From: Oscillospiraceae bacterium
GTDB taxonomy: Bacteria > Bacillota > Clostridia > Oscillospirales > Oscillospiraceae
DNA: 44,636 nt
Reading direction: 5' to 3'
Assembly: GCA_902798545.1 (NCBI GenBank)
Contig: CADBWQ010000022.1
Location: 1 to 44,636, forward strand
Under the pieces are notes generated by a model that saw only the letters and a program-made list of their open reading frames with translations, was not told where the DNA came from and did no database searches. Of the stretch, positions 16,071 through 32,472 are shown piece by piece. Both the position numbers and the translations under genes were made by a program. Each line of letters starts with the position of its first letter. Position 1 is the stretch's first letter.

Positions 16071-16412
16071 TCACTCGAATCCGAGTTCTTTTACGGTCAG
16101 TTCCTTCCCGTGGAGGATCTCATAATCCGCCATGCCGCAGCCGGGGCAAATCCGTTCCTCTTCTTCCGGATTGAAGACCTCCCCGCAGCAGCGGCAGAAG
16201 GCTTCTGGCTCGATCTCCTCGATCTTCAGCTCGGATCCCTCCAGCGCACTCCCCTTGGTGAGATCTCCGTAGTACATTTGCAGATACGGCGGCTCTACCC
16301 CGGTCAGCTTCCCCACCTGAACGGTGAGGAAGCTGACCTTTTCGATTTTATGCTCATTGGTAAACTGGAGCGTGGTGCTGACGATGTTTTCGACGATGCT
16401 GAGTTCGTGCAT
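16071..16412 (-). CDS. hypA: HypA nickel metallochaperone
   Basis: A 113-residue protein with the invariant MHE N-terminus, whose H2 helps bind nickel. Zinc-site cysteine pairs are C73/C76 and C89/C92. HypA delivers Ni(II), with the GTPase HypB, to [NiFe] hydrogenase or other nickel enzymes. It starts 2 bases after the stop of the flavin oxidoreductase and is the second gene of that operon. The two hypB genes lie in the divergent operon. No hydrogenase subunit or other hyp gene is present in the window. Confidence 0.95.
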   Translation of the reverse strand: MHELSIVENIVSTTLQFTNEHKIEKVSFLTVQVGKLTGVEPPYLQMYYGDLTKGSALEGSELKIEEIEPEAFCRCCGEVFNPEEEERICPGCGMADYEILHGKELTVKELGFE

Positions 16413-16414
16413 AC

Positions 16415-19084
16415 TCAGCTCCTCTTCACCATTTCAGAGAGACCATGAGCGACGATATTTGCGCCGCGCTTTACTACATTCTTCGCGAGGCGGCCATACC
16501 AGTGCGCCATATCATTGGCCCACTGGGTGTCGTCCACGCGGACAAGGTGGATAGCGTCAAACTCGCAACGGTGTGTGCATACACCGCATCCAATGCACTT
16601 GTCCATATCCACCACCGACTGGCCGCAGTGCAGGCAGCGGAGCGCTTCTTTCTTGATCTGCTCCTCGGTCAGCCCGGCGCGCAGGTCCTGGAAGGTCTTT
16701 GAGGAGACGGTACCATCGACTTCTGGCACCTGTTGGCGCGGGGTGGTGTTCAGGCGGCCGAGCTCCACAGATACCTTACCGGTATCGACAGCCTGGTAGG
16801 TGCCGTGCCGTGCATCCGTGAGATTGAGTCCGCGGAGCTGGCGGGAGATAGAGATGGCTCCCTCCTTGCCCTGGGCGATGGCATCGATGGCGAACTTCGG
16901 ACCGGTAAGGCAGTCGCCGCCGACAAAGATATCCTTCTGCGCTGTCTGGAAGGAGATACTGTCCGCTTCCGCATTCAGTTTCTTCCCCTTGGCCATGTCA
17001 CCTGTATCCAAACCACCCCAGTCGATGGTCTGGCCGATGGCGGCCACGACACTGTCGACCTCGATCTCTTCATACTCTCCGGTTCCGACAGGTGCCCTGC
17101 GCCCCTTCTCATCCGGCTCGCCGAGCTTCATGATTTCAACCTTCAGTGCCTTGACCTTTCCGTTCTTTCCGATGATCTCCACCGGTGCACTCAGGTAGCG
17201 GAAGGTGACGCCCTCAGAGACCGCCTCGCGGATCTCTTCCTTGTCGGCGGGCATCTCATCCGCGGTTCTGCGGTAGACGATGCAGGTCTCTGCGCCGAGA
17301 CGTACCGCACTGCGGCAGACATCCATGGCCACATTGCCACCGCCGATAACGGCGCATTTCTTGCCGAGCGCGGGCTTTCCGCCGAGGTTAATGTCGCGCA
17401 AAAAGTCCACACCGCCGTACACGCCTTTCAGCTCTTCACCGGGGATGCGAAGCGCCGTACTCTTCTGGGCACCGATGGCGAGATAGAAGGCCTCGTAACC
17501 CTGCTGACGCAGCTCGTCCAGACTGATATCCTTTCCGACTTCTATGCCGCACCGGAATTCGACACCCAGATCGCGGAGCACTTCGATCTCCGAATCAATG
17601 ACTTCCTTCTCCAGGCGGAAAGACGGAATGCCCATCATCAGCATGCCGCCGGGCTTCTCACTCTTCTCAAACACAGTGACCTGGAAACCGTCTGCCGCCA
17701 GATAATAGGCACAGGAAAGGCCTGCAGGGCCGGAACCGACAATTGCGACCTTGTTGTCGTAATGCCCTTTCTTCTCAGGCACAAAGCGGTTTTCCTTCTC
17801 ACGCTCCTGGTCGGCGATGAACATCTTGATGGCGTCAATCGCGAGGGACTGATCCAGAGTGTTTCTGGTGCACTGGGTCTCGCAGGGGTGCGGGCAGATG
17901 CGTCCGCAGACAGCCGGGAGCGGGTTGTCCTTTTTGATAACCTCAAGCGCCTCAAGATACTTGCCCTCAGAGGCCTTCTGGATATAGCCCTGGACGCTGA
18001 TGTGCGCGGGACATGCCACCTTGCAGGGGGCGGTGCCCAGCGGCGAGACAAGATTGCGCTCGTTGATGAAGTCGTCGTGGATGTCGCTCTTGCGCAGGAT
18101 GGTGTTCTGCGCCTTGCGGTACTCTCTGTTCTGGTGTTCCGGGCAGTCGAAGCTGGTGCCCATGGTGACGGCGTTCATCGGGCAGATGGTGACGCACTCA
18201 CCGCAGGCGACGCACTTGTCGTTGTCGATCTTGGCACGGAAGTTGGAGTGGGACATGGGATTGGCGTCCAGACGATTGATCTGACGCAGGCCGGCACAGG
18301 CGCATCCGCAGCAGTTGCAGATGAAGGTGGTATAATCCTTGCCCTCGACCTGGAAGGCACAGTGGACCAGGCCGGACTTTTCGGTATATTCAAGGATCTG
18401 GATGGCTTCTTCTTTGGTCACATAGCGGCCGCGGCCGGTGCGGACGTAGTAATCCGCCGTCTCGTCGAACTGCATGCAGGTCCCCTCAATGGGATGCTCA
18501 CAGCCTTTCCCCACGAGCTTGCCGGCAGTGCGGCAGGCGCAGTCAGCGACGGAATAGGTGTGGGCGCTGTTGACAAAGGTCAGGACATCCTCAAAAGAGT
18601 AGACTTTCTGCTGGGCATTGATCTCTTTCATGACCGGGGTGACCTTCATCAGGCCGCCACCCTGTACGCTGACGTTGCGCAGCAATACGCCCAGTTCATT
18701 CAAAGTCCTGCGGAACTGGAATGCGACTTCCTTGTTTTTCTTCGTCTCCGGATCGGTCATGACAAACTCATAGAAACCCGGGATGAACGGGGTGATGTTG
18801 TAAAAGCACTTTCCGTCCTTGGTAATACGCTCAAAACATGCACCCTTCTGGCTCATATGCTTGAGCAGCTGTGCCGCCTTGTCCACGGGAACCTTAGCCG
18901 CTTCTGCAATCTTCTCCACAGACGTCGGCTTGTTGGGGATGTGCATACCCAATTCGCACTCTTCCTCCGAGATGAGCAGCCGGAACATTTCCACAAACGG
19001 TGCTCCGTCATTCATCGGTCCGAGGAACAGGCCGCCGTGGAAACTGATATATGTGGCGAACTTCGCCCATGCGCTTCTTGCCAT
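16415..19084 (-). CDS. Multidomain Fe-S/FAD pyridine nucleotide oxidoreductase, GltD/NfnB-like
   Basis: An 889-residue cytoplasmic protein; the start at 19084 follows AGGAGG. Residues about 45-95 look like a winged helix. A Cys-rich block follows at about 182-203 (CACR, KGCEHP, GTC) with ICNCCGCACAG near 255-265. A ferredoxin motif CVACGECVTICP lies near 291-302. A GltD-type Fe-S domain begins near 354 (CPAHISVQGYIQKASEGKY). FAD (GSGPAG, about 450) and NAD(P) (GGGNVAMD, about 581) sites follow. A last ferredoxin domain lies near 813-840. It likely moves electrons between NAD(P)H, flavin and Fe-S clusters. Its link to hypA suggests reductive support of nickel-site assembly, which is inference. 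Confidence 0.85.
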   Translation of the reverse strand: MARSAWAKFATYISFHGGLFLGPMNDGAPFVEMFRLLISEEECELGMHIPNKPTSVEKIAEAAKVPVDKAAQLLKHMSQKGACFERITKDGKCFYNITPFIPGFYEFVMTDPETKKNKEVAFQFRRTLNELGVLLRNVSVQGGGLMKVTPVMKEINAQQKVYSFEDVLTFVNSAHTYSVADCACRTAGKLVGKGCEHPIEGTCMQFDETADYYVRTGRGRYVTKEEAIQILEYTEKSGLVHCAFQVEGKDYTTFICNCCGCACAGLRQINRLDANPMSHSNFRAKIDNDKCVACGECVTICPMNAVTMGTSFDCPEHQNREYRKAQNTILRKSDIHDDFINERNLVSPLGTAPCKVACPAHISVQGYIQKASEGKYLEALEVIKKDNPLPAVCGRICPHPCETQCTRNTLDQSLAIDAIKMFIADQEREKENRFVPEKKGHYDNKVAIVGSGPAGLSCAYYLAADGFQVTVFEKSEKPGGMLMMGIPSFRLEKEVIDSEIEVLRDLGVEFRCGIEVGKDISLDELRQQGYEAFYLAIGAQKSTALRIPGEELKGVYGGVDFLRDINLGGKPALGKKCAVIGGGNVAMDVCRSAVRLGAETCIVYRRTADEMPADKEEIREAVSEGVTFRYLSAPVEIIGKNGKVKALKVEIMKLGEPDEKGRRAPVGTGEYEEIEVDSVVAAIGQTIDWGGLDTGDMAKGKKLNAEADSISFQTAQKDIFVGGDCLTGPKFAIDAIAQGKEGAISISRQLRGLNLTDARHGTYQAVDTGKVSVELGRLNTTPRQQVPEVDGTVSSKTFQDLRAGLTEEQIKKEALRCLHCGQSVVDMDKCIGCGVCTHRCEFDAIHLVRVDDTQWANDMAHWYGRLAKNVVKRGANIVAHGLSEMVKRS

Positions 19085-19126
19085 GAATCTCTTCCTCCTG
19101 AACATGTTTAAAGATGTAGCACCATT

Positions 19127-19148
19127 ATTTTAGTACATATCCTAAAAT
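19127..19148. promoter_or_regulatory. Probable TetR operator between the divergent nickel operons
   Basis: ATTTTAG (19127-19133) and CTAAAAT (19142-19148) are perfect inverted arms around 8 bases; about 18 of 22 positions are symmetric. The site covers the -10 and spacer of the oxidoreductase promoter and lies 40 bp upstream of the tetR -35. Size and symmetry suit a TetR dimer. Confidence 0.7.
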
Positions 19149-19155
19149 TATGCAA
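19127..19155 (-). promoter_or_regulatory. Promoter of the oxidoreductase-hypA operon
   Basis: Minus-strand TTGCAT (19155-19150) and TAAAAT (19132-19127) are spaced 17 bases, inside the palindromic operator. Confidence 0.65.
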
Positions 19156-19188
19156 GAGCTATTCCCACATTTTTATCAAAAATATCGA

Positions 19189-19217
19189 TTGAATTCTCTG
19201 CGTCTCGCCCATATAAT
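19189..19217 (+). promoter_or_regulatory. Promoter of tetR-hypB-hypB, probably leaderless
   Basis: TTGAAT (19189-19194) and TATAAT (19212-19217) are spaced 17 bases. The expected start of transcription is within one or two bases of the ATG at 19225. Confidence 0.65.
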
Positions 19218-19224
19218 AGGAAGC

Positions 19225-19833
19225 ATGGTAGAAAACATCAAACAACTGATCGCGGAAGCGAGTCGGGAGCTCTTCAACTCCAATGGCTACCAGAAGGTCA
19301 CGATGCGGCAGATTGCGGAGGCCTGCGGCATCTCTGTGGGAAATCTAACCTATCACTATCCCCACAAAGAAGACCTCCTGATGCTGGAGCATGATGGCAT
19401 TCTGAATGCTTTTCTGGACGATGTGCTGACGAATCGTCCGGATCTGACCGGCATAAAGGGATATTTTACTGTGGAGTGCGCTTTCCTGTATCGGATTCTG
19501 AATGATCCGCCTGTGGCCGCACTTTACTCCGACGTTATCAATGTCCCGAGCCTGCGCAGGCGCTATTGTGAGGCGCACCACGCGCTCTACCGGCACTTCT
19601 GCCCGGAGGCGGACAAACGGGGTGCCGCATGGGTTTCGACTCTGGCCATGTCCGCCATGGAATATGAGCTTGCAGATGAAGGGATCCTCACTGACGCGCC
19701 TGAGCAGATGGAAAACATCTTCCGGGCAAAACTCCTCTTCGAAGGGAAAGATCCGGAGGCTTACGTCAATCTGATTCACGAAGCAGTCGAGGCCGGCACG
19801 GCACTGGCCAGGCAGTTGAACCAAGTATACTGA
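19225..19833 (+). CDS. TetR/AcrR-family transcriptional regulator
   Basis: A 202-residue regulator with the N-terminal TetR helix-turn-helix (VTMRQIAEACGISVGNLTYHY, about residues 23-43) and a helical ligand-binding domain with no assigned ligand. An upstream in-frame ATG at 19150 would begin before the promoter, inside the divergent control region, so 19225 is preferred. It is 16 bases upstream of the first hypB and co-transcribed with it. It probably binds the palindrome at 19127-19148 and controls the oxidoreductase-hypA operon. Confidence 0.88.
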   Translation: MVENIKQLIAEASRELFNSNGYQKVTMRQIAEACGISVGNLTYHYPHKEDLLMLEHDGILNAFLDDVLTNRPDLTGIKGYFTVECAFLYRILNDPPVAALYSDVINVPSLRRRYCEAHHALYRHFCPEADKRGAAWVSTLAMSAMEYELADEGILTDAPEQMENIFRAKLLFEGKDPEAYVNLIHEAVEAGTALARQLNQVY

Positions 19834-19849
19834 GCAAGGAGAACGGAAA

Positions 19850-20521
19850 ATGGAGAAAGCAAAAATCATTGCGCTGAAGGAATCCGTCCTGGAGGACAAC
19901 GACCAGGACGCCCAGGCACTGCGGGAAGAGCTGCACGCAGGCGGCACCTGTCTGCTGAATCTGATGTCATCTCCCGGAAGCGGCAAGACCACCACGCTTC
20001 TGGCACTGAACAAAGCCTTTGGCGGGCGGCTCCGCTGGGGTGTCATGGAAGCCGACATCGACAGTGCTGTGGATGCCGACACCATGCTTGCAGCGGGGGT
20101 GCCGACCGTGCAGCTGCACACGGGCGGCATGTGCCACCTGGATGCGGATATGACCCGTCAGGGGATCCGGGCGCTCGATATGGACAATGCGGAACTGATC
20201 GTCCTGGAAAACATCGGTAATCTGGTCTGCCCCGCAGAATTTGATACCGGCGCGGCAATCAACATGACGATTCTCTCTGTCCCCGAGGGCGACGACAAGC
20301 CGGCGAAGTACCCCCTGATGTACGAAACATGTGACATGCTCGTCGTAAACAAGATTGACACCCTGCCGGTTTTTGACTTTGACAGGGAACGGATGGAAGG
20401 CTACGCCCGGGCACGCAACCCTGAGATCGAGATCTACTACATCTCGGCAAAGACCGGTGAAGGTGTGCAGGAACTGGCCGATGCACTTGTAAAGAAAGTA
20501 AAGGAGTGGAACGCAAATTGA
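19850..20521 (+). CDS. hypB: HypB nickel-insertion GTPase, first copy
   Basis: A 223-residue SIMIBI GTPase. It has a P-loop SSPGSGKTT (40-48), the metal-binding pair C95-H96 in TGGMCHLDAD, a third ligand C127 in ENIGNLVCPAEFDTG, and the guanine motif NKID (167-170). GTP hydrolysis drives nickel transfer with HypA. It lacks the N-terminal CxxCGC and histidine-rich segments of some HypB proteins. An AAGGAG site precedes the ATG. The next gene is a second hypB. Confidence 0.95.
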   Translation: MEKAKIIALKESVLEDNDQDAQALREELHAGGTCLLNLMSSPGSGKTTTLLALNKAFGGRLRWGVMEADIDSAVDADTMLAAGVPTVQLHTGGMCHLDADMTRQGIRALDMDNAELIVLENIGNLVCPAEFDTGAAINMTILSVPEGDDKPAKYPLMYETCDMLVVNKIDTLPVFDFDRERMEGYARARNPEIEIYYISAKTGEGVQELADALVKKVKEWNAN

Positions 20522-21198
20522 GCGAAGTCAGAGTCATTCAGGTTAACGAATCTATTTTTGCCGAAAACGACCGCTCGGCCGAGCTGATCCGGAAGCGGCT
20601 TACGGATCAGGGGACGCTGTTCCTTAACTTCATGTCCTCTCCGGGAAGCGGCAAGACCACTACACTGGTGGCCCTGATCAATCGACTGAAGGACCGCCTG
20701 AACATCGGAGAGATGGATGTGGACATTGAGAGCAGCCTGGATGCACAGCGAGTTGCGGATCGCACCGGGATTCGCTCACTCCAGATCCACAATGGCGGAC
20801 TCTGCCACATCGACGCCGATATGACGGCCCGTGCTCTGATGGAATATGACACCAAAGGTCTCGATCTGCTGATTCTTGAGAACATCGGGAACCTGGTATG
20901 TCCTGCGGAATTCGATACTGGTGCCCATAAGAACATCACGATTCTCTCAGTGCCCGAGGGCGATGATAAGCCTCTCAAGTATCCCCTGATGTATACCGTC
21001 AGCGACGTGGTACTCATCAACAAGATCGACGCCCTGGACTATTTTGACTTTGACCTGGAGAAGGCGAAGCAGCGCATCCTCGCCCTGAATCCGAAAGCGA
21101 TCTTCTTCCCCATCAGCGCAAAGACCGGCGAAGGGATCGGCGCAGTGTGTGAATGGATCCTGCAGGAATTGGATGCTGTGCGGGACGCCCGGGCCTGA
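20518..21198 (+). CDS. hypB: HypB nickel-insertion GTPase, second copy
   Basis: A 226-residue paralogue of the preceding protein with P-loop SSPGSGKTT (40-48), C96-H97 in NGGLCHIDAD, C128 in GNLVCPAEF, and NKID. The TTG at 20518 overlaps the upstream stop as TTGA, lies 11 bases after AAAGGAG, and gives an N-terminus (MSEVRVIQVNESI) that aligns residue for residue with copy 1. A GTG at 20506 overlaps the ribosome site and is less likely. Both copies keep all key residues, so neither looks decayed. Confidence 0.92.
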   Translation: MSEVRVIQVNESIFAENDRSAELIRKRLTDQGTLFLNFMSSPGSGKTTTLVALINRLKDRLNIGEMDVDIESSLDAQRVADRTGIRSLQIHNGGLCHIDADMTARALMEYDTKGLDLLILENIGNLVCPAEFDTGAHKNITILSVPEGDDKPLKYPLMYTVSDVVLINKIDALDYFDFDLEKAKQRILALNPKAIFFPISAKTGEGIGAVCEWILQELDAVRDARA

Positions 21199-21354: not shown

Positions 21355-22428
21355 TCATGTCTGGATCTGGAGCATTTCCTCCAACAGACCGTTGTCCTCG
21401 AATACCATGAAATCCCGGATACCGATGCTGATCTGCTGTCCGTTTTTGAGATTCTTAAATTCATAGCCGCTCACAATGACACGCACCAGCCTGTCACCGA
21501 CCCGGACACGGCAGTCGTCCACATCGCCCAGGTAATACTGTGTTTCGAGGGTCCCGGTCAGCATCCCGTTTTCAGTGAAGAAAAGGTTCTCAGGCCGGAT
21601 CGCAACTTCCACTTTCCCGGTACGGGGCCCATTGTACGGGATCTTCTGATTGTTCATTTCCGGGAAGACAATCTGCCCATCCCGAGCCTCACCCTTGAAG
21701 AAGTCCACCTTCCCCAGGAAGTCTGCCACAAACTGATTCGCCGGACTGTTGTAGATCTCCTGCGGGGTGCCGCACTGCTGCACAACACCGCGGTTAATGA
21801 GGAAAATCCGGTCGCTCATGGCCATGGCCTCGGTCTGGTCATGGGTGACATAGACGACGGTAATACCAAGCTCTCTCTGGATTTCCTTGATTTCAAAGCG
21901 CATGGATTCGCGCAGTTTGGCATCCAGGTTGCTGAGCGGTTCGTCCAACAGCAGCAGCTTCGGGGCGGCCACGAGCGCACGGGCCAGGGCAACGCGCTGC
22001 TGCTGGCCGCCGGAGAGCTGGTTTGGGAATCGGCCGGCATACTGGCTCAGATGGACAATGCCCAGCACTCTCTCAACACTGCTTTGGATCTCAGTCCTGG
22101 CAGTTTTTTTGATGGTGAGCGGGTAGGCGACATTATCGAACACATTCATGTGTGGCCATACCGCATAGCTCTGGAAGACCATCCCGATGCCCCGCTTTTC
22201 CGGTGGCACAAAGGTCTTGCCCCCCGAAACCAGCCGATCATCAATATACAGTTCTCCGCCTGTCGGCTTCTCAAAGCCTGCGATGATGCGCAGCATCGTG
22301 GTCTTTCCACAGCCGGAAGGTCCCAGAAGTGTGATGAATTCTCCATCCCGGAATGTTTCGTTAAAATCTTTCAGCACGGTGTTTTCACCGAATGATTTGG
22401 AAATATGATTCAGCGTTACTGTTGCCAT
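21355..22428 (-). CDS. ABC transporter ATPase, FbpC/PotA type
   Basis: A 357-residue ATPase with Walker [10 protein letters not shown] (36-44), Q-loop [11 protein letters not shown], signature LSGGQQQR (138-145), Walker B LLLLDEP (158-164) and switch H in [16 protein letters not shown]-type regulatory region occupies about 280-350. It powers the permease encoded just upstream. The FbpC/PotA class takes ferric iron, polyamines or small anions, so substrate remains open. It is the last gene of its operon. Confidence 0.92.
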
Positions 22429-22444
22429 CAGCTTTCTTCCTTTC

Positions 22445-24940
22445 TCAGATTGAGAACTCGCCCCTGGTCAGTCGGTTCAGTACATAATTGAGGAACACGA
22501 CCATCAGCAGAATCCCAAACGCCATCGCACAGCTCATCGGCTGGCTGGTGAACGTCCAGTACTCATACAGCTGAAAGCCGATGGTCTTGGTCGTACTGGA
22601 ATAGAGCAGTGTCGTCATGGATAGTTCATAGAAGCTCGGGATGAAGATCAGGAACCATCCTGCCGCAATGGACGGGAAAACCAGCGGTCCCGTAATCCGG
22701 AGCATGGTTCGAAGCCAGGAGGCGCCGGATACCTGGCTGCACTCTTCCAGTGACACGTGGATCTGGCTCATGGCGGAAACCACCGTCCGCATACCCATCA
22801 TCATATACTTGATCATGTAGGCGATGATCATGATATACGCAGTGTTATAGATGTTGATGCCGAAGTTGCCCTTCATGGTCATAATCAGCCCCAGCGCGAT
22901 GACCACCGACGGTGTCCCGGAGCCCAGTGTGATGAGGAAATCCGGAATCTTCCTGCCGCGGATCTGGGTACGCTGCAGCAGATAGCTCATGGTACAGGCA
23001 ACCACAATGCCGATCGTCGCAGCGACAGCCGCAAAGATCAGAGAATTTCGGAAGCTGTTGAGTGTCTCCACCCGCCCGAACACAGTCTTCCAGTTTGTCA
23101 GTGTGAAGTTTTCTGCGCGGAACACGGGCTTTCCGACATCGATCTTGAACGATGTCGCAAGAATCACCGCAAACGGGATGACAATCACAATCACCGCAAA
23201 GAGTGTCACCAGCACCGTCAGGGGAACACGCCAACGCCGCAGATCGACGATCGCCGGCTGCACCGACTTGCCCGAAACGGTAATATACTGTCTCTTTGCC
23301 AGAACCACATCGGAGAGAAACAGGATAATCACCGCAAGACTCATCAGAAACACGGCCATCCCTGTGGCATCGTTCATGCCCTGCTGGCCCAGGGCAACAT
23401 ACTCGACGATGCGGGTCGTCACCGTATGTACGCGGCCGGGACTCCCGATGATCGAGGGAATCCCGTAACAGCTGGCTGCAGCGACGAACACCAGCAGTGC
23501 GCCGGAGATCAGTGACGGCAGCATCATGGGCAGTGTCACGGTAAAGACGGTCTTCAACGGAGACGCCCCGCTGATGCGGCTTGCCTCTTCCAGAGACGGA
23601 TCCATCTTCTCCATGGCACGGCTGATGGTGATGAATGCATAGGGATAATAGAAACTGGTCAGCACCCAGATCATTCCCGGCAGGCTGTAAATATTCAGCG
23701 GTCCCGGTGCATTGCTCAGGCCGAACAGCATCCGGATCCACTGGTTGATGGTGCCGACATTCGGGTTCAGAAGCCGCAGCCATGCCATTGCGCCCACATA
23801 GGGCGGTACCATATAGGTCAGTACGAAGAGACCGCGGAAGAATTTCCTGCCGTACAGATTCGTTCTCCCGACCAGCCAGGCCAGCGGGAAGGCCAGAACA
23901 GTGCCAAAGAACATGGTCGCCGTGGCGGCAATCAGCGTGTTCTTCAGCGCATCCAGGTTCAGCGGATAGGTGTAGAGCCGTCGGAAGGTCTCCAGTGAGA
24001 AGCTGCTGTTCGGGAAGAAGGCCTTGACGATCATGAAGATTAGCGGCATCAGCTGGAACAGGAGCAGGAAGTCGACAATCAGCAGGATCAGGATCCATTT
24101 GAAGTCGAAGATCCATGTTCTGTCCCCCATCATCAGAATCGTCAGGAGCAGGGCGTCCAGGGCGATGACGATACCCGTCAGAATGGCCGTTCGGCTGTTG
24201 CTGACAATCAGCTGCCATCCCCACGAGACCTCACCCTGTGCGATCATCCGAAAGGCCTCCAGCTGTGTTTCCTTGTTCCGGACGCTTTTCTTCAGCGTGT
24301 TCACCTGCTCGGTGGTTTTGCCGTCCGCGGCGTCGTTGCTGACAAACCAGGCCTGTATCAGCGCCGCCTGCCGCTCCTGCCCGCTGAGCCTGCCGGCCAG
24401 TTTCTCCGCAGCTGTCGGGAGCGCAGCGCCTTCATCCATGACTGCCTGCAGCAGGGAAAGCCGAAAATCGTCACGCTCGCTTTCAGGGATCGCTGTGATT
24501 TCTTTCTTATTTGCTGTACTGACCTTCGGTCCGCTCACGAGATACGTGGTGTACAGCAGCTTATGCAGAAGTTCCCGGCGGCTTTCTGCATCCTCTTCCG
24601 CCAGAATTGCATTCAGTTTCTCCGTACTGCCTTTCTTCTGGTTCTCCCATGCAGCCGTCAGAAGCTCGTAGGCCGTCTGATCCAACAGCGCCCGGTCCTG
24701 TTCGGAAAGTACTGCCGTCTGCGGTTCCAGCTTCATGCTCCAGGCGCTTTCCACATCGCCGTGCAGCTGATAGATCGCCCGGTATGCCGCCTCCGAACTG
24801 AAACCCGAGCTGTTGTATTCCTGCATCCCGCGCCAGCCCATAAAAACAAGTGCCGCACCGAACAGAACCACCATCACCAGTACCGCTTTCGTCAAGGCCG
24901 GTGTCATGTTCCTCTTCTGGCCTGTCACTGTACTTTTCAT
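22445..24940 (-). CDS. Fused two-domain ABC permease with extra N-terminal domain
   Basis: An 831-residue membrane protein. Two FbpB-like permease domains are fused, each with an EAA-type loop (EEASRISGASPLKTVFTVTL and EECSQVSGASWLRTMLRITG). Usual FbpB proteins have about 500-560 residues. Here an anchor helix (about 15-35) is followed by about 200 mainly helical, charged residues (36-235) before the first permease helices. Topology places that segment outside the membrane if the first helix is N-in. It pairs with the ATPase 16 bases downstream. The added domain is not recognised. Confidence 0.88.
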   Translation of the reverse strand: MKSTVTGQKRNMTPALTKAVLVMVVLFGAALVFMGWRGMQEYNSSGFSSEAAYRAIYQLHGDVESAWSMKLEPQTAVLSEQDRALLDQTAYELLTAAWENQKKGSTEKLNAILAEEDAESRRELLHKLLYTTYLVSGPKVSTANKKEITAIPESERDDFRLSLLQAVMDEGAALPTAAEKLAGRLSGQERQAALIQAWFVSNDAADGKTTEQVNTLKKSVRNKETQLEAFRMIAQGEVSWGWQLIVSNSRTAILTGIVIALDALLLTILMMGDRTWIFDFKWILILLIVDFLLLFQLMPLIFMIVKAFFPNSSFSLETFRRLYTYPLNLDALKNTLIAATATMFFGTVLAFPLAWLVGRTNLYGRKFFRGLFVLTYMVPPYVGAMAWLRLLNPNVGTINQWIRMLFGLSNAPGPLNIYSLPGMIWVLTSFYYPYAFITISRAMEKMDPSLEEASRISGASPLKTVFTVTLPMMLPSLISGALLVFVAAASCYGIPSIIGSPGRVHTVTTRIVEYVALGQQGMNDATGMAVFLMSLAVIILFLSDVVLAKRQYITVSGKSVQPAIVDLRRWRVPLTVLVTLFAVIVIVIPFAVILATSFKIDVGKPVFRAENFTLTNWKTVFGRVETLNSFRNSLIFAAVAATIGIVVACTMSYLLQRTQIRGRKIPDFLITLGSGTPSVVIALGLIMTMKGNFGINIYNTAYIMIIAYMIKYMMMGMRTVVSAMSQIHVSLEECSQVSGASWLRTMLRITGPLVFPSIAAGWFLIFIPSFYELSMTTLLYSSTTKTIGFQLYEYWTFTSQPMSCAMAFGILLMVVFLNYVLNRLTRGEFSI

Positions 24941-24981
24941 CTGCTGTCACCTCTTCTCATCATGAACTCGCATATGCGCAA

Positions 24982-25016
24982 GCAGGGGGAAGCCGGACAG
25001 CGGCATTCCCCCCTGC
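24982..25016 (-). terminator. Hairpin between binding protein and permease
   Basis: GCAGGGGGAA (24982-24991) pairs with the segment 25006-25016 (TTCCCCCCTGC, one bulge), with inner CCG/CGG pairs. There is no T-tract on the minus strand, so it may stabilise the upstream message rather than terminate. Confidence 0.55.
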
Positions 25017-25038
25017 TGTAAAACAAAAGATCCCGGAA

Positions 25039-26118
25039 TCAGTTCATTGTGACGGTCTCTGTCCAGGCCGTGTTGATCGCCTCACGGTTGTGATAGGCGT
25101 TCTCCCAGTCTACGCCAAGGTCATGCTCAATCAGCCAGTTGGTGTCGACCGATCCAAAGGGGATCTCTTCCATGTTCTTGAACACGGAGTGCATAAATCC
25201 TTCAAGGATCAGTTTCTGCGCTTCTTCGCTCAGCAGCCATTCCTCCACCGCCTCACAGGCTTCGGTGTTGACATTCTTGCTGTGCTCCTCTGCAACCGTC
25301 ATCACGGTCGAGGGGATCAGGACGACACCGTCCTCCGGATAGATGCACTTCAGGTTCGTGACCGGTGTGCCGGCATCTTCCGCATCCTTCAGAACTTTCA
25401 GGATCGACTCTTCGAGAATCATAATCGCCGCACACTCACCGGTCTGCAGCTTGGTGATCGCCGTGGAGCCGGATTCGATCATGACCTCATTGGCCGCCAG
25501 CCCCTTCAGATAATCCGGGCCATAGTGGTTATCCTGAGTCAGAGAGGCCACTGCCGCGAAGGTTGTGCCGCTCGACATGGGGTTGCCCATGGAGATATAT
25601 CCCTTGAGCGCCGGGTCACTGGCAAAGGCTTCGAAGGTCTGCGGAATGGTCACGCCTCTGGCCGCCCATTCGTCGGCCATCTCGGGATTGTAAGCCAGAA
25701 CCATATTGCAGACGCGGACCGGATACCAGTACCCCTCTTCATCATAGGGGAAGCGGAGCAGCTCATCCGGATTCTCGATCTCGACAGGCTCAAGATAGCC
25801 TGCTTCCTTCAGTTCCAACGACAGCGCCGGTTCTGCCACCAGCATCATGTCGCAGTCCAGAGTTCCGGTCTCCATCTCGCCGTAGATCTTGGTGATCAGC
25901 GAACTGGTTCCTCCGTAAAAGAAGAAACTTCCTTCGTTGCCGGGCGTCAGATTCGGGAACTCCTCCTTCAGTGCCTCGTCCAGCTTATCAAGCACGAACT
26001 GATACATTGAGGAATAGATGACAATCTCTCCCTCCACATCCTCATTGACCGCAAACGCTGTAATGCTCAGTGAAGCCGTCAGAACCAGCGCGAGCAGCAC
26101 TGCTGTCACTTTTTTCAT
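25039..26118 (-). CDS. ABC substrate-binding protein, FbpA-like
   Basis: A 359-residue secreted protein with a signal peptide (MKKVTAVLLALVLTASLSIT then AFA) and no lipobox cysteine. IVIYSSMYQFVLDKLDEAL near 33-51 and the later blocks fit ferric/2-aminoethylphosphonate-type (family 1, SBP_bac_6/8) binding proteins. It feeds the fused permease and ATPase. The ligand cannot be set from motifs. A GGGAGGAAC site precedes the ATG. Confidence 0.88.
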   Translation of the reverse strand: MKKVTAVLLALVLTASLSITAFAVNEDVEGEIVIYSSMYQFVLDKLDEALKEEFPNLTPGNEGSFFFYGGTSSLITKIYGEMETGTLDCDMMLVAEPALSLELKEAGYLEPVEIENPDELLRFPYDEEGYWYPVRVCNMVLAYNPEMADEWAARGVTIPQTFEAFASDPALKGYISMGNPMSSGTTFAAVASLTQDNHYGPDYLKGLAANEVMIESGSTAITKLQTGECAAIMILEESILKVLKDAEDAGTPVTNLKCIYPEDGVVLIPSTVMTVAEEHSKNVNTEACEAVEEWLLSEEAQKLILEGFMHSVFKNMEEIPFGSVDTNWLIEHDLGVDWENAYHNREAINTAWTETVTMN

Positions 26119-27681: not shown

Positions 27682-29451
27682 TCAGATCAGTCCGTTGTAC
27701 CGAAAGCTGTCCAGAATGCGCCCAATCAAAGCCGTGCGTCCGAAGGGTGTCACCAGATAATAGCCATCCACATCGGAAGCGATATCCCGGGCAAATTCCG
27801 TCGATATTTCTACGGCAAGTTCTTCCCCACGGGTCCTGTCCGCACCTTCGTAGCGCCCGATGATTTCTTCGGCGACCTGAATTCCCGCAATCTCACTGTT
27901 CATAAAAAGGGCGTTTCGCCGGCTGACTACGGGCATAATACCGCCGAGAAGCTTACCCTTCAGCTCCGACCGGGCAAGCTTCAGATTCTCTACTGCCTGC
28001 TGGCTCAGCACCGGTTGGGTCAGGAAACCTTCCGCGCCGTTTGCTTCCTTCATTTTCGCCATGTCCAGTTGTATGGGGAAATTGCGGGCATTGACATTCA
28101 ACGCTGCAAAAATATGAAACGGCGCAGGCAGAACTGTCTCATTCAATCCGCTGATATATCGGATCAAACGGCGGGAATTGAAATTATAAACACTTTTGAC
28201 CTCGTCACGACTGGCGGTAGGGATCGGATCCCCGGTAACAACCAGAACATTTCCGATGCCCTCGGCACAGAGCCCGAGCAGGAGCGCCTGTGTTGCGTTC
28301 AGATTTCGATCCCGGCAGGTCATGTGAGGCAGTGCGTTCACACCGAGCTCCCGGTGAAGCTTGCATGCCATCAGACTGGAGTCCACCCGCACTCTTGCTA
28401 CCGGGCAGTCGGCGATGGTGATGATATCAACGTCTTTGGATTGCAGCTCCCGGGCTCCATTCATAAACTTGTCCAGGTCCGCATCCTCCGGCGGGTCCAA
28501 CTCCACCGCCACCGCTTTTCGGTTTGGATCGCAAAGCACATCCCAGAACAGATTTGGCCGGGTCTGGGGTACCCTCTCCTCCCGTCCAGCAGGCAGGTCA
28601 ATTCTCACCGGAGCTGGTGCTCGCAGCGCCGTCGCAGTTGCGGCAATATAAGCCGGGGTGGTGCCGCAGCAGCCGCCGAAGATCTTTACGCCGAGATCTC
28701 GCATCTCCGCCATCTGAGCGCCAAAGTATACGGGGTCACCGTTGTAGTAGCTACGACGCCCCCGTACCGTCGGGTAGCTGGCATTCGGCATCACAGAAAG
28801 CGGGATTCGAATCGGTCCGATTTTCCTCAGGAGCTGCACCATATGCCTGGCCGTGGTCAGACAGTTCATTCCCACTGCATCAATATTGGGATCCTTCTCC
28901 GCGGCTTTACACAGATCCCGGATCAGGTGTCCGTCTGCTGTAAATCCGTCCGGCTGGGTATTGAATGAAAGAATCACAAAGGCAGTCGGCTGCCGTGACT
29001 TGATGTGCGCCGCAATTTCATGGAGATACTGGTCACTGCTGTGCGTCTCAAACAGGAAGTGCTTCATGCCGCGCTCCAGGAACAGGTCCGCAACAAAGCA
29101 GTATTCTGTCAGCAAATCTCTGTCATCCTGCAGTTCGATCGGGCCGACAGAGGCAAACACATAGGCATCTCCGTTCGCCGCCCGTTCCGCGATATCGCAG
29201 GCGGCACGGATCAGTGCTCTGCAGTCTCCCTCAGCCATTCTCAGACGGTTGACCGCATAGGTGTTGGTCTTAATGGCTTTGCAGCCGGCTTTCAGATAGG
29301 CCCGGTGGATCGCTTCGATCTCCCCGGGATTCGTGATGCTGGCCCACTCACAGGCATCCGCAGAAGTGTTGTTGCGTTCGGCGTAGAAAGTTCCCATGCC
29401 GCCATCGAAGAGCAGACCGTGTCCTTTCAGATAATCTCGAATATCTTTCAT
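27682..29451 (-). CDS. Bifunctional homocysteine S-methyltransferase/methylenetetrahydrofolate reductase
   Basis: A 589-residue YitJ-like fusion. Residues 1-285 are a zinc-dependent homocysteine methyltransferase domain with C197 in AVGMNC and C261-C262 in GGCCGTTP. About 305-589 is an MTHFR (MetF) TIM barrel that reduces 5,10-methylene- to 5-methyl-tetrahydrofolate with a flavin. It can supply methyl-folate to MetH, whose stop lies 14 bases upstream. The first domain may accept another methyl donor such as S-methylmethionine. Confidence 0.93.
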   Translation of the reverse strand: MKDIRDYLKGHGLLFDGGMGTFYAERNNTSADACEWASITNPGEIEAIHRAYLKAGCKAIKTNTYAVNRLRMAEGDCRALIRAACDIAERAANGDAYVFASVGPIELQDDRDLLTEYCFVADLFLERGMKHFLFETHSSDQYLHEIAAHIKSRQPTAFVILSFNTQPDGFTADGHLIRDLCKAAEKDPNIDAVGMNCLTTARHMVQLLRKIGPIRIPLSVMPNASYPTVRGRRSYYNGDPVYFGAQMAEMRDLGVKIFGGCCGTTPAYIAATATALRAPAPVRIDLPAGREERVPQTRPNLFWDVLCDPNRKAVAVELDPPEDADLDKFMNGARELQSKDVDIITIADCPVARVRVDSSLMACKLHRELGVNALPHMTCRDRNLNATQALLLGLCAEGIGNVLVVTGDPIPTASRDEVKSVYNFNSRRLIRYISGLNETVLPAPFHIFAALNVNARNFPIQLDMAKMKEANGAEGFLTQPVLSQQAVENLKLARSELKGKLLGGIMPVVSRRNALFMNSEIAGIQVAEEIIGRYEGADRTRGEELAVEISTEFARDIASDVDGYYLVTPFGRTALIGRILDSFRYNGLI

Positions 29452-29465
29452 TGTTGTCTCCCGTT

Positions 29466-31814
29466 TCAGCCCAGCACCATTCGCGCGATATCCGCACTCT
29501 GCTTGGCGTCCTTGGCATAATAGTCCGCACCGATCTCGGCCGCATAATCCGGGGTCAGGACCGCGCCGCCAACCATGATTCTGCAGTCATGGCCGCTCCT
29601 GCGGATGGCGGCGATGGTCTCCGCCATGCTGGCGACTGTAGTGGTCATCAGTGCGGACAGGCCTACCAGTTTTACATCCTCGCGGATGATGGTATCGACG
29701 ATTCTCCGGACCGGTACATCCCGCCCCAGATCAATCACGGTATAGCCGTAGTTCTCCAGAACCACGCGGACAATGTTCTTGCCGATGTCGTGGATATCTC
29801 CGTAGACGGTGGCGAGAACGATCTTTCCCTTGGAGACCGACTGTGTCCCGCTTCGGGCAAGCCGCTCCCGGATCACATCAAATCCGCCGCATGCAGCATT
29901 TGCCGCATTGATGAGCTGCGGAAGAAAAATCTGCTGCTTCTCATACCGGTCTCCTACCACGTCGAGCGCGGGAATCAGGAGCTCATTGATCACATCCATT
30001 TCTCCCCGTGTCTCCAGAGCCCGTATGGTGGCGGCGGCAGTCTCTCCCTTCAGTCCTCTCAGGATGCTCTCCTGGATGCTCATTTCCTTCCCTGCCGTCT
30101 CCGGTTTTTTCGTCGATTCCTCTATCTCGGCAAAACGGCGGATAAATGCCTCGCCATCCCTGTCCTCCCCGGACAGGAGCCGGAATGACGCCACCGCGTC
30201 CATGACAGCGCGCTGATTCGGATTGATAATGGGAAGATCCAACCCGGCATAGAGTGCCTGGGTAAGGAAGCTCACGGTGATATTCTCCCTCGCCGGCAAG
30301 CCAAAAGATATATTGCTGACACCGAGGACGGTGTGCAGCCCCAGCGTTTCTCTCACATAATGCAGCGCCTTCAGCGTCTCAGCAGCCTGATCCTGCTGTG
30401 CTGAGACTGTGAGTGTCAGGCAGTCGATAAGCACGTCTTCTTTCGGAATTCCGACAGCTGTTGCCGCCTTCACGATCCGTTCAGCAATCCTGACGCGATC
30501 CCGCCAGGTCTGAGGGATTCCCTCCCCGTCCATACAGAGTCCGACCACTGCAGCACCGTATTTCTTGCAAATCGGGAGTATTGCCTCCAGGACCTCGGCT
30601 TTGCCATTGACAGAGTTTACAACGGCCTTTCCGTTGACCACCCGCAGTCCCGCCTCAATCACAGCAGGATCGGAGGAATCGATCTGCAGCGGCAGATCCA
30701 CAACCGCCTGCAGGGCCTTGACCACGCGGGTCATTATCTCCGCCTCATCGATACCGGGGAGGCCCACGTTCACATCCAGAATATCCGCACCCGCGTCCTG
30801 CTGTTCAATCCCGCGGGTAACGATATAGTCAATGTCATTCTCTCTCAGCGCCTGCTGAAAGCGCTTTTTCCCGGTGGGATTGATCCGCTCGCCGATGACC
30901 CGCACCCCGCCGAAGCCGACTGTCTGCGTTGCGGAGCAGACGCCGAAGCACCTCCAAACCACCGGGTTCTTTACAATTTCCCGGTCGGTGTGTTTTTTCA
31001 GTGCCCTGATGAAATCCGGCGTTGTGCCACAGCATCCCCCCAGCATCTGCACACCTTCCTGCAAGGCAGGTATCAGCTCTTCGGCGAATTCATCTGCCGT
31101 GATGTGATACTCCCCTGTCGCCGGATCAGGCAGTCCCGCATTCGGTTTCAGGATCAGCGGTTTATCCGTCCAGCGGCGCAGTTCCCGGATGAGCGGAAGC
31201 AGTTCTTTCGGTCCCAGGCTGCAGTTGAAGCCCATGGCGTCCACGCCGAGGCCTGTGAGCGTCAGTCCCATTGCCGGAACTGTCGTCCCGACGAAGCTGC
31301 GCCCGTTCGCCTCAAAGGTCATCGTCACCCAAACCGGGAGCGCACTGTTCTCTTTCGCTGCGAGAACGGCAGCCTTGACCTCGTAGAGGTCGCTCATCGT
31401 CTCGATCACGATGAGGTCTGCGCCTGCGTCCCGCCCCGCGACGACAATCTCCCTGAATACATCATAAGCTTCTTCAAAGCGAAGCGTTCCCAACGGTTCC
31501 AGCATCTGTCCGAGCGGGCCGATATCCAGAGCGACCCTTACATTCTCTCCGGCTGCGGCTCTCGCACAGCGAATTCCCCCCTGTACAAGATCCCGGACCG
31601 AATAACCGGTACGGGAAACCTTGAGGCGATTCACGCCGAAGGTGTTTGAGTAGAGAAGCCTGCTACCCGCCTCCACATAACGCCGATGCACCGTGGTCAC
31701 TTTGTCCGGTTCGGTCAGGTTCCAGATTTCCGGCGCCTGTCCCATGGGAAGTCCCGCAGCCTGAAGCTGTGTTCCCATTCCTCCGTCAAGTAGTATCAGT
31801 TCAAATGGCTCCAC
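29466..31814 (-). CDS. metH: Cobalamin-dependent methionine synthase lacking the activation domain
   Basis: With the GTG at 31814 (AAAGGAGG 9 bases upstream) it has 782 residues. It has a homocysteine-binding barrel (zinc cysteines in GFNCSLG and GGCCGTTPDF), a pterin-binding barrel (about 305-570), a cap (about 580-660) and a B12 domain whose DIHDIG places the cobalt-ligand H675. The usual C-terminal AdoMet activation domain is missing; a separate upstream gene supplies it. The gene overlaps that upstream gene by 14 bases. Confidence 0.93.
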   Translation of the reverse strand: MEPFELILLDGGMGTQLQAAGLPMGQAPEIWNLTEPDKVTTVHRRYVEAGSRLLYSNTFGVNRLKVSRTGYSVRDLVQGGIRCARAAAGENVRVALDIGPLGQMLEPLGTLRFEEAYDVFREIVVAGRDAGADLIVIETMSDLYEVKAAVLAAKENSALPVWVTMTFEANGRSFVGTTVPAMGLTLTGLGVDAMGFNCSLGPKELLPLIRELRRWTDKPLILKPNAGLPDPATGEYHITADEFAEELIPALQEGVQMLGGCCGTTPDFIRALKKHTDREIVKNPVVWRCFGVCSATQTVGFGGVRVIGERINPTGKKRFQQALRENDIDYIVTRGIEQQDAGADILDVNVGLPGIDEAEIMTRVVKALQAVVDLPLQIDSSDPAVIEAGLRVVNGKAVVNSVNGKAEVLEAILPICKKYGAAVVGLCMDGEGIPQTWRDRVRIAERIVKAATAVGIPKEDVLIDCLTLTVSAQQDQAAETLKALHYVRETLGLHTVLGVSNISFGLPARENITVSFLTQALYAGLDLPIINPNQRAVMDAVASFRLLSGEDRDGEAFIRRFAEIEESTKKPETAGKEMSIQESILRGLKGETAAATIRALETRGEMDVINELLIPALDVVGDRYEKQQIFLPQLINAANAACGGFDVIRERLARSGTQSVSKGKIVLATVYGDIHDIGKNIVRVVLENYGYTVIDLGRDVPVRRIVDTIIREDVKLVGLSALMTTTVASMAETIAAIRRSGHDCRIMVGGAVLTPDYAAEIGADYYAKDAKQSADIARMVLG

Positions 31815-32472
31815 AGTGGGTGTCCTCCTTTCGGAATCTGCATGTCTCAAACATCGTACAGCTGGCACAGCCCCGGTGTCTGTGCTCCTGCGGCCGGTCT
31901 GCGACGCCGATCAGTGCGGTGACGGATTTCTGCGGCAGCATCAGGCCGCTCTCGGAGAGGCTCACTCCAATCTGTCTCGTGATATCCAGTACTCCGAACA
32001 GTTCCCTCTGCTGCGCAAAAGGGAAATCTCCGTATCCCGGGCTGAAACGGTCAGTCAGGTATCTCGGCGCGAAGCGTTCTGCCAGATCCTTGCAGAGATT
32101 GTCACACACATTCTCGACGGCGGCGCTGGCCGCCGCATCCAGAATCACAGCATCTCCCATGTTACGAATCTGGCTCCGCCGCAGGAGCTGCTCTGTCTCA
32201 CTCCCCAGTGTCACCGCAATCAGAATCACCTGATTGCAGTCTTTCAGGAGTTTCTGCACGTCATGTCCCCTGGGAGAAAACGCCGTTCCGGCAAAGCGTC
32301 CGTCCTGTTCCAGAGAAAAGAGCTTCCACAGTACCCTCGGTCTCGCTGTCTTGAGGACTTCCTCCTCGCAACGGGTAAGATCCTGCTCCAGCTGCTCCGG
32401 GATCTCGCTCCCCAGATAGCCCAGATACTGTAGGGTCTCTTTTCGGTTGATACCTGTAAGTCTGCCTTCCAT
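31801..32472 (-). CDS. Methionine synthase activation-domain protein
   Basis: A 223-residue stand-alone version of the MetH activation domain. It has the RFSPGYGDFP signature near 160-169, the AdoMet-binding region of the family, and a C-terminal Cys motif (CASC, then C). It should allow reductive remethylation of oxidised cob(II)alamin on MetH. The ATG at 32472 follows AAAGGAG by 7 bases; an upstream ATG at 32523 has no site. It is the first gene of the methionine operon. Confidence 0.9.
   Translation of the reverse strand: MEGRLTGINRKETLQYLGYLGSEIPEQLEQDLTRCEEEVLKTARPRVLWKLFSLEQDGRFAGTAFSPRGHDVQKLLKDCNQVILIAVTLGSETEQLLRRSQIRNMGDAVILDAAASAAVENVCDNLCKDLAERFAPRYLTDRFSPGYGDFPFAQQRELFGVLDITRQIGVSLSESGLMLPQKSVTALIGVADRPQEHRHRGCASCTMFETCRFRKEDTHCGAI

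Follow-up and report, generated by a model that had tools for sequence, protein, structure and literature searches.

Nickel redox enzymes are few, and in some bacteria urease is a client of HypA and HypB. The described system closest to the locus studied here is that of IsrA, a 901-residue putative isoprene reductase that is induced by isoprene in Acetobacterium wieringae (Kronen 2023, PMC10134865) and was also found upregulated by Jin et al. 2022 (PMC9765523). According to PMC10134865, the isr operon encodes two HypA proteins, HypB and a 4Fe-4S protein besides IsrA, and the co-occurrence among 988 IsrA homologues is 0.73 for HypA, 0.56 for HypB and 0.21 for TetR. Its authors propose IsrA as the nickel target, at a six-cysteine site (henceforth Cys6), and ascribe nickel binding by HypA to the His-Glu that follows its start residue (PMC10134865). 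That IsrA reduces isoprene is deduced from its induction and from gene content rather than from work on the purified protein. Among the matches listed in our search, these two papers were the only open-access literature on the IsrA family.

We analyzed a window of 44,636 nt, the whole stretch of DNA presented here, which holds a five-gene unit whose members all match the expected families by ORF calls and profile searches. Indeed, the two divergent operons that had been recognized from the sequence alone are in place, with the oxidoreductase (henceforth OX) and hypA on the minus strand and tetR, hypB1, and hypB2 on the plus strand:

16071–16412, minus strand: hypA, 113 aa, MHE start and two CxxC pairs kept
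16415–19084, minus strand: OX, Fe-S/flavin oxidoreductase; ~889 aa with the likely start, 896 aa with the start at 19105
18296–18541, minus strand: Cys6 region in OX, C189 to C270, proposed nickel or Ni-Fe-S site
19123–19152, no strand assigned: near-palindrome that overlaps the OX promoter and may be a TetR operator
19127–19132 (-10) and 19150–19155 (-35), minus strand: OX promoter, read from the sequence
19225–19833, plus strand: tetR, ~202 aa, ORF open from 19150, TetR_N match
19850–20521, plus strand: hypB1, GTPase; P-loop and the C-H...C metal ligands present
20506–21198, plus strand: hypB2, second GTPase, overlapping hypB1 when read from GTG

The hypA product scores 102.9 bits against PF01155 and 87.7 on TIGR00100, slightly below that model's cut-off of 88.1, and the gene starts 2 bases past the OX stop on the minus strand. 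Both HypB proteins are above the TIGR00073 cut-off of 121.2 (214.4 and 225 bits) and retain the Cys-His and Cys metal ligands. For OX, which matches Fer4, Fer4_20, and Pyr_redox_2, we prefer the second ATG (19084) as the start, because an AGGAGG lies inside the first seven codons of the longer reading and because the near relative L010 has only the second start. The tetR start was likewise placed at the ATG at 19225, not at 19150, because of an AGGA read directly upstream.

OX and IsrA both have ~900 residues, an unassigned N-terminus, a GltD/Nfn-like FAD/NAD(P)H part and ferredoxin segments in matching places, and both carry two CxC pairs, at positions 180/182 and 254/256 in IsrA as published (PMC10134865) and at 182/184 and 256/258 in OX when counted from the likely start. 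HypA and HypB adjoin both proteins, and TetR is described as a frequent neighbor in the IsrA family. OX has the length, the Fer4/Fer4_20/Pyr_redox_2/C-terminal ferredoxin series, the six cysteines, and the HypA/HypB neighbors of the IsrA-like proteins (clade 9 of Kronen 2023) and is probably a member of the IsrA family, a kinship judged from layout, length, and cysteine positions rather than from an alignment with IsrA. The operons themselves differ: the locus combines a single HypA with two HypB and a divergent TetR, whereas isr comprises two HypA, a single HypB, and a 4Fe-4S protein encoded separately. Neither a second HypA nor a further Cys6 match was found in the 44,636-nt window, and the unit is therefore not an isr operon proper. 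While this kind of protein was already known, the partition of HypB, the separate Cys6 protein beside hypA and hypB, and the OX-HypA pairing described below are new as far as we searched, and they make the published nickel proposal directly testable.

The N-terminal third of OX contains one ferredoxin segment and otherwise no Pfam family over cut-off; it is followed by Fer4_20 and Pyr_redox_2, as in GltD and NfnB, and then by ferredoxin cysteines at the C-terminus. Alignments with the best solved relatives begin at about residue 344, the top match being 8oh5 (OX residues 359–828). NAD(P)H oxidoreductases of the NfnB/GltD/Stn type, including the Stn-type enzymes that we take to be kin of OX, align with it from residue 359, and the solved relatives found do not cover the Cys6 region. 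The six cysteines of this region (C189, C191, C210, C263, C265, and C270 in the 896-residue numbering) are invariant in 37/37 full-length fused relatives, a count that leaves out L045 (partial, 32%), L060, and L066 along with the partial or split OX of L024, L034, L035, L036, L038, L040, L043, L067 (G092), and L068 (G108). They are also invariant in 20/20 alignment rows, among them all three of the separate proteins considered below; the neighboring OX cysteines 266 and 268 are retained in just 9/37. The structure model of the Cys6 domain is of moderate confidence (pLDDT 73), and a fold search with the model of the N-terminal domain matched none of the solved structures at an E-value of 0.001 or lower; its weak-scoring hits were mostly winged-helix regulators. 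We regard Cys6 as a predicted nickel site, though it could instead hold an ordinary Fe-S cluster, with HypA and HypB acting in some other way. A plasmid search yielded one record that covers >80% of OX (Subdoligranulum, 41%, H1).

The sequence-only reading had noted that no hypCDEF or hydrogenase genes lie near the unit, and the host genome (G000, 91.8% complete) bears this out. Its sole HypD and its sole [NiFe]-type large-subunit match are confined to contig C3, which carries hypF, hypC, hypD, hypE, a second hypA and the large subunit of the [NiFe] hydrogenase type together; HypC was assigned by reading the sequence, HypE by AIRS domains and position, and the rest by family match. Also on C3 (L008 5848–6762) is a gene for a 304-aa ferredoxin-like protein in which a long Ala/Pro/Lys-rich stretch joins two Fe-S ends. 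Over cut-off, the whole genome encodes no HypB other than the two of the locus. As a hydrogenase and hypCDEF are present elsewhere but a third hypB is not, the two HypB of the locus may be shared and may also serve the hydrogenase. This raises the alternative that HypA and HypB of the locus mature the C3 hydrogenase, and that OX is a mere neighbor or an electron donor for hydrogenase maturation. Since the C3 set includes a hypA but the genome has no further hypB over cut-off, some sharing is likely. However, the hypA of the hydrogenase operon is distant, its product sharing no more than 30% identity with any of the 35 OX-linked HypA proteins compared.

Distribution across genomes bears further on this alternative. 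We searched one draw of 157 genomes of the order, using three family searches and two alignment searches. OX was found in 8 genomes (by alignment search), HypD in 9, HypB in 19, CODH in 4 (none of them with OX), and a Cys6-domain protein in 11, from 11 genera. The 19 HypB genomes are the exact union of the 9 HypD and the 11 Cys6 genomes, one genome being common to both sets, and HypB occurs in 0 of the remaining 138. Among HypD-less genomes, HypB is thus present in 10/10 with Cys6 versus 0/138 without (Fisher p ~1e-15, a value that ignores kinship). By tests that likewise ignore kinship, OX is associated with HypB (8/8 genomes with OX versus 11/149; Fisher p ~1e-8) but not with HypD (p 0.38). 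Because most Cys6 genomes (8/11) had a sequence in the search alignment or their own window, their detection is by construction, whereas the absence of Cys6 from the HypB-less genomes is not. The OX search scored the 5 best candidates per genome and the Cys6 search 13, so that paralogue counts are lower limits.

Seven of the eight OX genomes in the draw lack HypD, while all eight have HypB and none has CODH; for the Cys6 genomes, 10/11 lack HypD and 0/11 have CODH. The lack of HypD from seven of eight OX genomes led us to reject the hydrogenase as sole client and supports the proposal, made from the sequence alone, that the unit serves something other than [NiFe] hydrogenase. The clients suggested at that time fare less well. 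CO dehydrogenase is absent from every OX and Cys6 genome of the draw. A LarA-type racemase cannot be the general client either: family searches detected neither LarA nor CODH in the host genome, and LarA had no match in 12/18 genomes searched, the host included, with matches in G067, G095, G108, G147, G168, and G181; LarA was matched in 4/10 HypD-less Cys6 genomes and in none of the other 6. The earlier view that the module has no visible client is not supported either, for in 10/10 HypD-less genomes with HypB the partner is OX or its Cys6 domain, in line with what Kronen et al. 2023 put forward for IsrA. The OX family accounts for hypA and hypB in the HypD-less genomes of the draw. The sequence-only reading had named its own refutation, a hydrogenase with hypCDEF elsewhere as the only nickel enzyme together with a lack of conserved linkage. 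The former is what the host genome holds as far as CODH and LarA were searched, but other species too keep OX linked to HypA and HypB, and the reading is therefore not refuted.

The position of the HypB genes points in the same direction. Of 23 in the draw, 15 adjoin OX or a separate Cys6 protein, although the two among them from G092 have just the C-terminal part of OX beside them; another 7 share a contig with hypD at a distance of no more than 10 kb, and 1, in G120, is located elsewhere. We rejected G120 as a further Cys6 case and count it as the exception, as the neighbor has a 2Fe-2S-type N-terminus with NuoE/NuoF-like genes adjoining (by eye), and the genome yielded no Cys6 match. That segment (L128 5032–10589), where hypB-hypA stands next to NuoE/NuoF-like genes and the gene for a 2Fe-2S/GltD-type protein lacking Cys6, represents a different possible setting for HypA and HypB. 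A tree of the HypB proteins from the fetched loci (quick method, midpoint root, long branches flagged) places 8 hydrogenase-operon HypB on one side with 99% support and 48 others opposite; HypB of G147 joins the hydrogenase side, though its genome has a separate Cys6 protein. Also in this tree, hypB2 clusters with the second member of the tandem HypB pairs from L010 and Holdemanella (G157). HypA and HypB of the locus belong to the same families as those of [NiFe]-hydrogenase maturation and share their metal motifs, but they are unlinked to hydrogenase genes, their HypB lies on the other side of the tree, and HypB occurs without HypD in 10 genomes of the draw. HypB is present in 35/35 further OX genomes; against our reading, 28/35 of these have HypD as well. 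On balance we consider it improbable that the hydrogenase explains the locus and favor OX itself as the client.

HypA was found with OX in 33/37 fetched loci, and HypB in 2/37 within the fetched DNA, the latter count speaking against a dedicated unit. Pairwise distances of OX and HypA correlate at 0.91 over 35 loci, with 0/2000 permutations as high; the set is without L014, L041, L058, and L063, whose OX lacks an adjacent HypA, and includes L060 and L066. Over 23 genomes, a subset of the 35 searched for HypB in which one of several HypB was used for L010 and L009, the correlation is 0.92 for OX-HypA versus 0.61 for OX-HypB, and 0.89 for OX-HypA given HypB (partial). This co-variation pattern fits HypA being a client-specific partner and HypB a shared GTPase, and hypA of the locus is likely the cognate nickel metallochaperone of OX. 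Co-variation may also arise when linked genes are not transferred separately, which makes the correlation support rather than proof.

The paralogues of the host conform to such a pairing. The genome has at least four OX genes (C22, C9, C15, and C25) and five HypA, that is, five for four OX and the hydrogenase: three adjoin OX, one is in the hydrogenase operon, and one stands alone (C3:145632). The lone HypA is closest (86%) to HypA of L016, the OX of which is among those most similar (89%) to the C9 copy of the host, and its partner is probably that C9 copy. The gene for the lone HypA (L166 7558–7977) has a divergent TetR-type gene, and a gene for a 1415-aa BcrAD/DUF2229 activase adjoins. In G017, G067, G092, G095, G108, and G153 there is one HypA over cut-off each, always adjoining OX.

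Gene order varies around this core. In the HypD-less genomes of the draw it is hypB-OX-hypA in G153 and in G108, where OX is split over two frames; OX-hypA-hypB in G067; OX-hypB-hypB-hypA in G017 and G092, the latter having only the C-terminal part of OX on the contig and the Cys6 part on another; hypB-hypB-OX-hypA in G095; and hypB-OX in G058. The order OX-hypA-hypB also occurs in L011, from a bin labeled Deltaproteobacteria (Myxococcota in the lineage file), which reflects either transfer or a mislabeled bin. Three genomes encode the Cys6 domain separately, as one gene of a row of three, hypA-Cys6-hypB in G097 and G156 and Cys6-hypA-hypB in G147. Their HypA proteins measure 80–84 aa from the MHE start and have no zinc finger:

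L094, 340–582: zinc-finger-less HypA by separate Cys6 and hypB
L095, 4800–5054: zinc-finger-less HypA by separate Cys6 and hypB
L096, 10533–10856: zinc-finger-less HypA by separate Cys6 and hypB

HypA can thus depart from its classical form in this setting, as would suit a second alternative, namely that HypA and HypB of the locus deliver zinc or aid Fe-S cluster building rather than insert nickel. Yet the His-Glu after the start residue is kept in all HypA inspected, those of the separate-Cys6 genomes among them, as are the Cys-His and Cys ligands in both HypB of the locus, and we judge this alternative very unlikely. The three-gene form offers a small, tractable system for locating the nickel-receiving domain.

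A further question is what OX acts on. Some OX-HypA paralogues, though not the module of the locus, stand in a row with genes of the 2-hydroxyacyl-CoA dehydratase family (HGD-D, PF06050), in the host (C25), G058 (C19), G157, G168, and G181:

L060, 4704–7468 (host C25): HGD-D genes in a row with OX and/or HypA
L063, L033, L133, L144, and L134: HGD-D genes in a row with OX and/or HypA

In L033 (G181) an activase-like gene also lies upstream, in L012 an HGD-D pair is ~4 kb from OX, and in G162 HypA adjoins an HGD-D gene with no OX in the 3.3 kb fetched. Genes for acyl-ACP thioesterase, AMP-ligase, or amine-oxidase-like FAD proteins occur within ~7 kb of the host C9 copy, the L039 copy, and the lone HypA of G058 C34, and FAD genes are also near the copies in L012 and L013 and, more distantly, L061:

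L058, 15818–18233: thioesterase/AMP-ligase/FAD genes near OX or lone HypA
L167, 2471–8285: thioesterase/AMP-ligase/FAD genes near OX or lone HypA
L039, 667–4541: thioesterase/AMP-ligase/FAD genes near OX or lone HypA

Part of this recurrence could stem from synteny that related genomes have in common. No dehydratase-, thioesterase-, ligase-, or FAD-type neighbor of these kinds was found for the OX copy of the locus, and the main text of Kronen 2023 (PMC10134865) is without the words dehydratase, hydroxyglutaryl, thioesterase, and phytoene. The rows with dehydratase-like genes, seen in several genomes, could mean that HypA and HypB load a different, unrecognized enzyme, possibly this one, the nickel site of which OX reduces or repairs. 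We think this unlikely: such genes occur in just 4 of the 37 + 11 OX loci and then in four more HypA-centered loci, never at the locus copy, and no other partner common to the HypD-less genomes was seen among the families and loci compared. The redox-linked repair path that the sequence-only reading had entertained found no specific support.

We therefore favor, with a probability of roughly 0.6, the view that the locus encodes one IsrA-type enzyme with dedicated maturation and control, and that OX itself is the nickel client. In such an enzyme, NAD(P)H would give electrons to the FAD of OX, a [4Fe-4S] chain would pass them to the N-terminal Cys6 site, and the C=C bond of a small or lipid-like compound would be reduced there, the nickel having been inserted into the site by the GTPase HypB and the cognate HypA. 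TetR would keep the OX promoter blocked as long as an inducer, which is probably the substrate, is absent. That promoter, read as TTGCAT/TAAAAT, has a 17-bp spacer containing the core of a dyad in the divergent gap, at 19123–19152, in which 10/11 arm positions pair and the core of which is conserved in L010. A palindromic operator common to both operons had been proposed from the sequence alone; a near-palindrome is indeed present in the gap, but 24/1000 single-base shuffles of the gap equal it, so that the dyad alone is modest evidence and the case for an operator rests mainly on its position and on its conservation in L010.

Taken more broadly, and at somewhat less than even odds, Cys6 may represent a catalytic nickel site of a new class, probably Ni-Fe-S, and join [NiFe] hydrogenase as another major client of HypA and HypB, either fused to an NAD(P)H reductase or separate in a minimal unit whose other members are hypB and a zinc-less hypA. 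Its paralogues would each have a HypA of their own and would have been recruited for the reduction of differing C=C substrates, in some cases along with an ATP-driven dehydratase-like pair and in others along with genes of the acyl-ACP and flavoenzyme kind. If the IsrA family is nickel-dependent, many anaerobes, including those of the rumen and abomasum samples here, would have a little-recognized route for saturating unactivated double bonds, with relevance to isoprene turnover and perhaps lipid biohydrogenation.

Two other features of the window may be noted. Downstream of hypB2 on the opposite strand (21355–26118) lies an ABC importer that includes a solute-binding protein and a permease of 831 aa. 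Further on (27682–31868) are two adjacent homocysteine methyltransferase genes, one an MTHFR fusion and the other with pterin- and B12-binding domains.
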